Part shown: in pieces, positions 543 to 59,460 of the stretch
Layout of the letters: every line of letters begins with the position of its first letter
Position numbering within the stretch: the first letter of the stretch is position 1
Assembly (NCBI RefSeq): GCF_008727925.1
Contig: NZ_VTWT01000001.1
Location: 124,001-188,000 of the forward strand
DNA from: Adhaeribacter soli
GTDB lineage: Bacteria > Bacteroidota > Bacteroidia > Cytophagales > Hymenobacteraceae
DNA length: 64,000 nucleotides
Direction of reading: 5' to 3'
Translations under genes and position numbers: made by a program
Notes under the pieces: model-generated
The model's database searches: none
Told to the model about the DNA's origin: nothing
Seen by the model: only the letters and a program-made list of their open reading frames with translations

Positions 543-671
543 TTGTCTAAACACGATTTCAAAGATTGAAAGGATAGAAAGGATTTTATTTTGGAATTAA
601 ATTATTCAGGATTCAGAAGAAAATCGAGCGTGTTTACATCCTTTCATCCTAAGAGTCCTGATTCAGACCAA
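543..671. repeat. Palindrome-armed dispersed element, short copy
   Basis: The left arm (543-586) begins TTGTCTAAACACGATTTC and runs into GATTGAAAGGATAGAAAGG. The right arm (637-671) is a degenerate inverted copy ending CTGATTCAGACCAA. The interior carries GATTCAGAAGAAAATCGAG, which matches interiors of the copies near 2.48 kb and 14.91 kb. There is no ORF. It occupies most of the 382-865 gap, where I see no gene. Confidence 0.75.
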
Positions 672-2019: not shown

Positions 2020-2406
2020 ATGGGAACCAACACGAAGGAAACATTGGCTTTGGTAGCGCACGATCAGAAAAAGAACGAATTGCTGGAATGGGCCAAAGAT
2101 AACCTCAAACGCCTGAAGCAGTTTCATTTAATTGGAACAGGCAGCACCGCCGAATTGCTGAACAACATCCTGGAGTTGCCGGTGGAGCCTTTCGGCCACG
2201 GTCCGCAAGGCGGCGATATTCTACTGGCTGCCCGTATCCTGGAAGACAAGGTGCACCGGGTAATATTTTTCATGGATCCGCACACGCCCCACAGTCACGA
2301 GCACGACATTCAAACCCTTATCCGGACGGCAGTGAGCAACAACATTCCCCTGGCCTTAAACAAAGCTACCGCCGATTACCTGTTGCGGGATGAACCGAAA
2401 GAATAA
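2020..2406 (+). CDS. mgsA: Methylglyoxal synthase
   Basis: The protein converts dihydroxyacetone phosphate to methylglyoxal and phosphate in the cytosol, bypassing lower glycolysis when phosphate is short. The 128 residues span the usual single alpha/beta domain. Visible landmarks are VAHD (H14, D15), a phosphate-binding TGST (40-43), GPQGGD with the presumed catalytic Asp at 66, and FFMDP followed by SHEHD (92-96), where H93 lines up with the active-site His of the E. coli enzyme. The usual PHD reads SHE here, a small deviation. The ATG is preceded by no clear Shine-Dalgarno, as is common in this phylum. It is monocistronic; a palindromic element follows eight bases after its stop. Confidence 0.92.
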   Translation: MGTNTKETLALVAHDQKKNELLEWAKDNLKRLKQFHLIGTGSTAELLNNILELPVEPFGHGPQGGDILLAARILEDKVHRVIFFMDPHTPHSHEHDIQTLIRTAVSNNIPLALNKATADYLLRDEPKE

Positions 2407-2413
2407 AGCAGAA

Positions 2414-2687
2414 TTGTCTGAACACGATTTTAAGAATTGAAAGGATAGACAGGATTTAATTTTATAAAGATTTATCCGGATTCAGGTAAAAGGCGAGGGT
2501 GTTCAAAAAAAGATTTTTCATTTGAAAGCCCGTTGAAGGCGCTGAAAACAGTGTTGCGCTTTCAGCTGCCTTTTAAAATGCTTTTAAATAAAAAATTTTC
2601 TGCCTTTGCTTCAGGCTGCATTCGTAGTAATACTTTCAGCGGAAAATCCTGTCCATCCTTTCAATTCTTAAAATCGTTTTCAGACAA
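2414..2687. repeat. Palindrome-armed dispersed element, 274-bp copy
   Basis: The left arm (2414-2457) and inverted right arm (2644-2687) are 44 bases with two mismatches, starting TTGTCTGAACACGATTTT at the outer edge. The interior holds GATTCAGGTAAAAGGCGAGG and no coding frame. The element fills almost the whole space between the convergent stops at 2406 and 2699, so it may also act as the terminator of both genes. Confidence 0.85.
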
Positions 2688-2698
2688 TCCCGCTTCCC

Positions 2699-4252
2699 TT
2701 AATTATACCGGCCGCGGCGTTGCGGGTCTTCCAGGAAAAGCTGCAGGAAAATTTTCTGTTCGGTAATGGAAGAACGCTGGTCCGGAAAATCGCGCAGGTT
2801 CCGTTTGGTGGCGTAGCCGAAATGTTCGTAACCCAAACTCAGGTTTTTGAACAGCCTTACCGTTACCCGCGGCCTTAAAATGCCAATGGAATTGCTGCCT
2901 TTCAGGCCTTCGAAGGTATGGAGCCAGTAATGGTAATACACGAAAGCGGCCGTGGCATATTTGCCCAAACTTAAGGTAGTTTCCAGTTTTCCCTGAAAGC
3001 CGTTGGTGAACACATAATCGCGGAAACCTAGCGAATCGGGGGCGGAGCGGGTGCTGTTGCCGGCCAATGGTACCACGCCCAGGTGCAGGTTGGTGTACAG
3101 GTTTATCTGTTTGCTGACAGGCACTTTCGAGAAAATACCCCCGCCGTAGCTTAACGAACCCAGCACAAAGTTCCGGGTATTCCAATAGTCGTAATACTGG
3201 AAAATACCGGTAAGCAAACTTACTTTTCCAACCTGGGAATTTTTGCCAAATAAAATGCCGTATCCCGTAATGTTGTTGATCGCCCCGCCAATGGTATCTG
3301 CCGAACCGATGCTGAAATCTGCCCGCAACCGGAAAAGGTCGAAGGGTTTGCGTTTACGGGTTTCGAAGGGGTTGCCGTAATCGAGCTGGGCGCTCAGCAT
3401 GGCATTGTTTCCTCCCGGTCCGAACACATCGTTCTGAAGGTCGTTCAGGCGGTGTACGCCGGCAAATACGGTTATATTCAGCGGTTCTTTTTCATACACT
3501 TCCTTGTTGGTTACCTGGCGGGTTTTGCCTTGCAGGAGCCGGTTCACGCCGCGTACCGGGTTCAGGATACCCGCGGCAATTTCCCGGATCGTCCGTTCCG
3601 TGCCCCTCGTGCGGTCGTCGAGGATGTTGGAGCTAAGGCGGTAGAGAATTTCCCCCAGGGCCACGCCGTTCAGAGGCGTATAAATCATGTCGTTGTAAGA
3701 GGGCAGGGTGTTTTCGCCGAAGTACTCCCAGGTAAGGCTTCCGGCCACTGCAAACGGCAGGCTCTGCCAGTAATTATACCCTTGCGACCGGGCGGCATTA
3801 AAATACAGCGTTCCCTGGTAGGGGTGACCAATGAAATTGATCCCGAATTCATCGGTGTCCCATTCCGGGCCTTCCTTTAAATTGCGTTTCCAGGAACTGA
3901 AGCTTACGTAGCCGTAATCGGCTTTGGCAATGTAGCGGTTATAGCCCATAAACAGGGCATTTATGCCAATTACCTGGGCGGCCGGTTTCCAAAGGGGCTG
4001 CCTTGGGTTGTACTCCGGGTCATCGTTAAGAAGGTCGCCGTACTTATTGAAACGGGTGGTGTCGAGCAATACCGCATTGGCCGGTTCGGGGCCCAGGGAA
4101 TCGGAAAATAATTTCTCTTTCCGGGCTTTAATGCGTTCGAGTTGTTGTTCGCGATTGCCTTTTCCGGGCTTGATGGAATCGGGGGCGGTAATTACCTGGG
4201 CTTGTAACTGAGCTGCTGCTAAAAAGAAGAAAATTGTATAAATAAACTTCAT
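2699..4252 (-). CDS. DUF3943 outer-membrane protein, 517 aa
   Basis: A signal peptide is evident (MKFIYTIFFFLAAAQLQA, cleavage near residue 19). After a charged linker, the DUF3943 landmarks appear: an INFIGHPYQGTLYFNAARSQ segment near residues 137-157, then FAVAGSLTWEYFGE. The C-terminal half is a series of alternating aromatic/polar strands typical of an outer-membrane beta barrel, ending in a strand with QKIFLQLFL. The substrate is unknown; family members are widespread in Bacteroidota. The ATG at 4250-4252 directly precedes the signal peptide. It is convergent with mgsA, with the palindromic element between them. The 160-residue frame inside it is a shadow. Confidence 0.85.
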   Translation of the reverse strand: MKFIYTIFFFLAAAQLQAQVITAPDSIKPGKGNREQQLERIKARKEKLFSDSLGPEPANAVLLDTTRFNKYGDLLNDDPEYNPRQPLWKPAAQVIGINALFMGYNRYIAKADYGYVSFSSWKRNLKEGPEWDTDEFGINFIGHPYQGTLYFNAARSQGYNYWQSLPFAVAGSLTWEYFGENTLPSYNDMIYTPLNGVALGEILYRLSSNILDDRTRGTERTIREIAAGILNPVRGVNRLLQGKTRQVTNKEVYEKEPLNITVFAGVHRLNDLQNDVFGPGGNNAMLSAQLDYGNPFETRKRKPFDLFRLRADFSIGSADTIGGAINNITGYGILFGKNSQVGKVSLLTGIFQYYDYWNTRNFVLGSLSYGGGIFSKVPVSKQINLYTNLHLGVVPLAGNSTRSAPDSLGFRDYVFTNGFQGKLETTLSLGKYATAAFVYYHYWLHTFEGLKGSNSIGILRPRVTVRLFKNLSLGYEHFGYATKRNLRDFPDQRSSITEQKIFLQLFLEDPQRRGRYN

Positions 4253-14838: not shown

Positions 14839-14921
14839 GTTGAACACGATTTTAAAGATTGAGAAGATAGACAGGATTCCATGTCATAGGAATTAATTAA
14901 AATTCAGCAGAAAGGCGAGGG
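14839..14921 (+). repeat. Half copy of the TTGTCTGAAC element
   Basis: TTGAACACGATTTTAAAGAT followed by GAGAAGATAGACAGGATT matches the left arm of the 2414-2687 element, and AATTCAGCAGAAAGGCGAGG (14901-14920) matches its interior. I find no matching right arm, so this copy is truncated. It lies in the 14456-15218 gap, where no gene is supported. Confidence 0.65.
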
Positions 14922-31987: not shown

Positions 31988-32257
31988 TTGTCTGAACATG
32001 ATTTTTGGGATTGATGAGATTAACAGGATTTTATATTGGGAGGGAATTGATTTAACTAGGAAAGAAATGCGGGATATGGTCAAGGAAAAAAATGCTGAAA
32101 AAAGGAGGCTAAAAGATGGGAGCCAGATTTACACTTAATCAGCAGGATTGGCTATCTGGTAAATTCCCTTTTTTCCCTTCCGTTTCCGGGATCGTAGTCA
32201 TTGTTTGAATGAAAAATCATGTACATCATTAAAATCCCTTAAATCGTGTTCAGACAA
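31988..32257. repeat. Palindrome-armed dispersed element, 270-bp diverged copy
   Basis: The left arm (31988-32032) begins TTGTCTGAACATGATTTT and the right arm (32215-32257) ends with the inverse, AAATCGTGTTCAGACAA; the arms agree well at their tips and drift inward. Length nearly equals the 2414-2687 copy. It fills much of the 31758-32422 gap between divergent genes; no other feature is seen there besides the rsmA promoter. Confidence 0.75.
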
Positions 32258-59269: not shown

Positions 59270-59460
59270 TGTTTAATTATAGTACCGTCGCGCCGGTGTT
59301 TTGAACACGATTTTAAGGCGCAGGGAAAGTTCTGAATTATTATTTGGGAACAATTTATCTGATTTTAGGACCTGTCTGCCCGCATTCCTGAACACGCTGC
59401 CCAGTGCATTACCAATTAATTTTAGAAAGTGGGATAATAAATCCCTCGGCTCGGTTAAGA

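Follow-up and report, generated by a model that had tools for sequence, protein, structure and literature searches.

The window, a 64,000-nucleotide stretch of contig C8 of Adhaeribacter soli, contains a gap of 292 bp between two convergent open reading frames (ORFs), 2020-2406 (+), a methylglyoxal synthase by NCBIfam, and 2699-4252 (−). The gap is occupied by a full-length unit whose 44-base arms pair with two mismatches, both points in agreement with the preliminary description of this sequence. The inverted repeat extends to 2406-2457 / 2644-2695 (52 nt, 92% complementary), and the unit is an imperfect palindrome throughout, all 290 bases of the unit region aligning by BLAST with their own reverse complement at 69% over 305 columns. 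The further copies that had been proposed in the window were all recovered by BLAST (Table 1); no right arm was found for the half-unit. A lone 16-base exact match to the arm core at 59302-59317, where the ladder is otherwise missing, is probably a chance match or a very decayed copy.

Table 1 Units of the palindrome-armed family in the window
Feature	Position	Strand	Evidence or remark
Full-length unit, 274 bp	2414..2687	+	Inverted repeat, BLAST, profile; among 21 full-length genomic copies
Left arm: TTGTCTGAA, then GAT/AAT(T) every 9-10 bases	2414..2457	+	
Right arm: inverted left arm, two mismatches; copy-specific variants common to both arms	2644..2687	−	
Second full-length unit, 270 bp	31988..32257 (BLAST match from 31981)	+	Missing from orthologous sister-species gap
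Short unit, ~129 bp: left arm, part of interior, diverged right end	543..671	+	
Left half-unit: arm and interior ATTCAG..AAAGGCGAGG stretch	14841..14921	+	

Number, size and ends of the units

A genome-wide search with the arm, as the preliminary description had suggested, was performed on all 16 contigs (4.97 Mb). The arm 16-mer TGTCTGAACACGATTT gave 112 matches with up to three mismatches compared to 19 for the reversed control, and a 290-bp query returned 85 matches; the copy number of arm and unit is far above chance. Permissive BLAST (E ≤ 0.05) of the stretches around the matches located 79 arm matches, a few of which are weak, at 61 sites. Two-ended units, with at most three errors at the right end, numbered 36; 21 of these measure 229-289 bp (including C8:183297, which is probably spurious) and the others 101-643 bp. 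The size constancy read earlier from the 274- and 270-bp copies therefore holds as a mode and not as a constant.

An iterated profile identified 21 units matching end to end, 20 of which are also in the list of 36. Their alignment showed that the copies have the interior in common as well, and not just the arms. None of the mechanically called ORFs of at least 100 codons is overlapped by these 21 units, and the absence of a long ORF from their consensus bears out the earlier view that the unit is non-coding. The left-end consensus, TTGTCTGAACACGATTTTAAGGATTGATAAGATAGACAGGATTTT, consists of TTGTCTGAA and then GAT(T) at intervals of 9-10 bases. At the right end, most units have either the inverted left-end sequence or a related one starting TTGTCTGAACTATGATTTATAGGATT; in the units at C8:572975 and C5:127466 this end starts (TT)GTCTGAATCAG. 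Some of the longer units (321-643 bp) harbor other palindromic repeats of the genome. Repeats of this kind also flank three genes with matches to Y1_Tnp (L282, L283 and L284), and at least one of them lies inside the longer unit C8:285902-286319, so that several palindrome families coexist and nest.

In a few copies, including the one at 2414, the two arms share copy-specific variants. Across the 21 copies, pairing between arms of the same copy was in only weak excess over cross-copy pairing (z 1.2, p 0.11 for the whole arm; z 2.0, p 0.024 for arm positions 18-46), and this excess is due to a small number of symmetric copies, including that at 2414. In the sister species, the orthologous copy (L087) has a right arm that combines left-type and right-type patches in another way. 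We read the shared variants and the patch mixture as arm-to-arm copying, a known behavior of quasi-palindromes.

Flank pieces of the 21 units were searched in the sister species (G001), the sole other member of the genus returned, and ten orthologous loci were found, of which five are gaps without unit or arm, one is shared and four are uninformative. Both flanks align around an armless gap at C10:490327, C14:316251, C8:394272, C8:572975 and C8:155988, the last being the window copy at 31988; at C8:572975 and C8:394272 the sister species misses more than the unit. The unit at C3:123244 is present in both species. The 2414 locus is uninformative because the neighboring methylglyoxal synthase gene is missing from the sister species together with the unit. 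Arm-like matches lie within longer sister-species gaps at C9:517146 and C5:127466, and C8:268652 aligns on one side only. A check for target-site duplications had also been suggested; none was seen in the unit flanks or in the sister-species comparison, where the gaps are too diverged for exact junctions.

In a search of 59 relatives that scored no more than 13 candidates per genome, full-length matches to the unit consensus were confined to A. soli itself (G000) and a single one in G001, and ten other genomes gave shorter matches, mostly to the arms. The full-length matches are only 75-82% identical to the consensus, so the units are old and recent movement is not shown. A strict-pattern scan of genome contigs returned one stretch, in Spirosoma profusum (NZ_JACWZY010000016.1; L136 6310-6440), which is a short palindrome with GGATT-ladder arms and no gene noticed inside, with an inverted outer stretch on its flanks. 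In genome G050, a ~130-bp palindrome with TTGTCTGAACTATGATT arms (G050:C3:77109-77514; L089 1500-1907) recurs in tandem at a period of 277 bp, flanking sequence included, and a diverged third copy follows.

Inverted arms around GxxExxY genes

Of 296 genomes sampled across the phylum, 19, belonging to 15 of 140 genera, contain the TTGTCTGAACNNNGATTNNNNNGATT pattern; the reversed control gave no match. One arm pair, 467 bp apart, encloses a single 120-codon ORF and nothing else, and this ORF is a match to PF13366 (G135:C9:128136-128477). Outside A. soli, seven of 40 listed arm sites lie at most 150 bp from a PF13366 gene (six genes, six families). PF13366 matches occur in 151 of the 296 genomes, being present in 15 of the 19 arm-positive genomes compared to 136 of the 277 others (Fisher p = 0.016) and missing from four of the 19.

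Proteins of this family, named GxxExxY (PF13366/TIGR04256), are encoded by ~120-150 codons and match a model of the PD-(D/E)XK superfamily. Residues D66, E70, E76 and K78 of the A. soli protein (L085) are invariant in 16 aligned proteins, a profile of which found no sequence match in the PDB at E ≤ 0.1. A resemblance to Cas4 was seen in one of five scanned proteins and was weak and below the cut-off.

The 260-bp flanks of 74 GxxExxY gene rows were aligned as inverted repeats and compared to Markov shuffles. Inverted arms were detected at p ≤ 0.01 in 54 of the rows and were not significant in 20; they are ladders of CACAGAG-like, CGCAAAG-like, CGCGGAT-like or GATT repeats. Arms of the TTGTCTGAA-GATT type flank 24 of the 50 rows drawn from L085 and 17 selected genomes, on both sides in ten and on one side in 14. 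Without two genes that were counted twice in overlapping loci the figure is 22 of 48, which is not a phylum frequency, as the genomes were picked for carrying arms or arm-like matches. By regular expression, this arm type was found at none of the 30 highest-scoring PF13366 loci.

A single PF13366 gene, that at L085, was found in A. soli. Its arms are GATT ladders without TTGTCTG and are related to those of the units; the right end of the unit at C8:572975 is identical to the L085 arm at 33 of 38 positions. This genome yielded no gene-bearing copy whose arms are those of the units themselves, and neither the 21 units nor their consensus gave a profile match to a GxxExxY remnant at E ≤ 1. We therefore read the units as non-autonomous relatives and not as strict GxxExxY-borne elements; an origin as deletion derivatives of the gene was rejected for want of a remnant. 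A third arm copy is present at L085 2793-2833, ~750 bp past the gene's right arm; arms may thus also bound a larger segment there. The GxxExxY genes of A. soli and its sister species lie in different places, and the one match between them outside the gene is a 23-bp stretch of arm.

Arm types were compared to a tree of 70 GxxExxY proteins (117 columns, many weak forks). All 17 proteins with TTGTCTGAA-GATT arms fall in one clade of 22 (SH-aLRT 94), the remainder of which comprises four genes with GATT ladders, L085 among them, and one unclassified gene. Over all arm types, the tree requires 15 changes compared to 35.5 in shuffles, none of 200 of which was as low. The comparison was repeated within ten genomes holding 33 classified genes, with GATT and TTGTCTGAA-GATT merged; four of these genomes (G188, G204, G223 and G321) contain three arm types each. 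Label shuffles within genomes (1,000) averaged 13.8 changes and never gave fewer than 9, compared to the 4 observed, so host phylogeny does not explain the match. Arm type thus follows the protein clade, even within single genomes. The arm consensus of the units, scored against the gene flanks, reached a mean of 22.9 for the TTGTCTGAA-GATT group, 20.0 for the GATT group and 10.7-11.8 for the others, with shuffle means of 10.8-13.5 (24 rows shown). Among named plasmid records, the closest relative of L085 is a Persicobacter protein (61% identity), whose gene has GATT-ladder arms, as its clade predicts.

In other species, gene-bearing copies are shown to be insertions between operon genes, bounded by the arms. 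In Sphingomonas parapaucimobilis (NZ_CP155749.1), fabD and fabG are separated by a GxxExxY gene with inverted CGCGAAG-type arms; the aligned flanks are 473 bases apart there and 42 in S. paeninsulae, and in seven further listed records (H13-H19) the matched span is shorter by 428-472 bp. In Bacteroides finegoldii (NZ_OY725952.1), radA and the gene for a FAD-dependent protein have between them a 472-bp segment with TTCACCACAGAGG at one boundary and its inverse at the other; the two genes are 13 bp apart in Parabacteroides distasonis, and Phocaeicola massiliensis has a different insert at the site. Eight named plasmid records carry a GxxExxY gene, with arms at p ≤ 0.01 in five (Persicobacter, Bernardetia, Bacteroides, Sphingomonas and Prevotella) and none at that threshold in Treponema, Fusobacteria and Gemmatirosa. 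Phage records gave two weak PD-(D/E)XK matches.

Origin of the units

The ends of the units are of the same kind as those of the GxxExxY elements, and the units are therefore probably passengers that a protein of this kind moved in the past. The GxxExxY (PF13366) family is the best-supported partner, and we consider it somewhat probable that the units are old, MITE-like and non-autonomous representatives of a class of minimal GxxExxY insertion elements. Since they are diverged and no same-armed gene-bearing copy was found in their own genome, they are probably relics of a master that was lost or has diverged.

A gene-bearing element of this class is a single GxxExxY gene with an inverted arm on either side, and each arm is a ladder of short degenerate repeats. 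Each clade has its own arm type, which in the clade of L085 is a GATT ladder, mostly headed by TTGTCTGAA as in the units. In the mechanism that we propose, the protein recognizes these arms. Recognition of the arms by the protein, perhaps as an extruded hairpin, is suggested by the correspondence between clade and arm. We infer that the protein would also cut the arms in DNA and so start movement of the segment that they bound. Empty segments with suitable arms could then move in trans, and later decay together with arm-to-arm copying would reshape them.

Alternatively, GxxExxY proteins could bind the ladder arms for regulation or DNA organization, the units being dispersed binding sites spread by ordinary duplication and recombination. 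Clade-specific arms indicate recognition or co-inheritance and not movement, the tandem hairpins of G050 go back to a duplication that took in their flanks, and cutting of the arms by the protein is a prediction. Against this stand the gene-bearing copies, which are insertions bounded by arms, and the units, which have one full-length sequence in common across scattered locations and are absent from orthologous sites. We regard binding sites as an unlikely explanation.

A partnership with a Y1/RAYT transposase, raised in the preliminary description, was largely refuted. Such units would be REP- or TIR-type repeats moved by a Y1 (HUH) tyrosine transposase, similar to REPtrons or TIRtrons, and RAYT genes with TIRs as well as dispersed TIR families are reported in PMC3733652. 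The A. soli genome has seven Y1_Tnp matches, three of them beside other palindromic inverted repeats, but TTGTCTGAA-GATT arms are present at none of the seven. Judging from these Y1_Tnp genes, which are the transposase genes examined, an IS or Y1/RAYT transposase is probably not what the units depend on, and a Y1 origin is very unlikely.

The units could also be structured RNAs, as had been considered, or transcription terminators between genes. Single copies fold strongly (z −10.8, −3.9 and −3.6), which carries little weight because long palindromes fold well by construction. RNAalifold on the 21 copies kept 17 consensus pairs with an unfavorable covariation term of +0.4 kcal/mol, and no Rfam family reached its gathering score in the unit. 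The 2414 copy does sit between convergent genes; however, among the 20 full units for which both neighboring ORFs were called, the neighbors are tandem in 11, divergent in five and convergent in four. With no preference for gene orientation, convergent-terminator hairpins were rejected, and an RNA or terminator role as a whole is highly improbable.

That the units belong to elements of the S23/IVP type is hardly credible and was largely refuted: genes for PF05635, the 23S rRNA intervening-sequence protein, do lie between inverted ladder arms (L079-L084 in A. soli and loci among L252-L281; six of six in A. soli, and 20 of the 34 tested overall at p ≤ 0.01), but the ladder has a different repeat at each locus and the regular expression found TTGTCTGAA-GATT arms at none of the 34.

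Returning to the reading of the units as passengers of GxxExxY elements, a wider proposal is that GxxExxY proteins are the mobility enzymes of undescribed minimal insertion elements that insert between operon genes in more than one phylum, with a clade-specific code between protein and arm and with empty passengers that fill intergenic gaps and include the 270-bp units; we consider its chances evenly balanced. If it is true, a widespread family named only after a motif would gain a likely role, mobility could be brought about by a nuclease-superfamily protein without a classical transposase, and an unexplained family of intergenic palindromes would have an origin. The clade-to-arm correspondence would then provide ready cognate and non-cognate pairs of protein and DNA. 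None of the papers listed in a literature search, which did not cover most preprints and subscription journals, describes arms or elements around GxxExxY genes, and this does not establish priority; a passage of PMC8934634 mentions GxxExxY incidentally, and the term also occurs in PMC12085832.

Comparison with known systems

Within the GxxExxY family (TIGR04256, PF13366), the arms of the units are of the type that flanks one clade, although the units carry neither the gene nor a detectable remnant. PF05635 elements likewise have a small gene between inverted ladder arms, but the protein family is unrelated and the arm sequences are different. REPtrons and TIRtrons, as described in PMC3733652, are similar in that one small gene lies between palindromic repeats in inverted orientation, the repeats are specific to the clade and copies without the gene are dispersed; their enzyme is an HUH tyrosine transposase, in contrast to the Y1 genes here, which lack these arms.

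The comparison with MITEs, made in the preliminary description, holds in most respects. The units differ from MITEs in that a protein of the PD-(D/E)XK superfamily, and not a transposase, is the likely partner, in their degenerate ladder arms and in the lack of an internal gene remnant; a target duplication was not seen in the diverged gaps. As in MITEs, the units are short and non-coding, with terminal inverted repeats and many dispersed copies (21 at full length), and they are present or absent at orthologous sites between sister species. Their ends resemble those of a gene-bearing element in part: the arm type is that of one GxxExxY clade in other genomes, and the arms of the gene in their own genome are only related.
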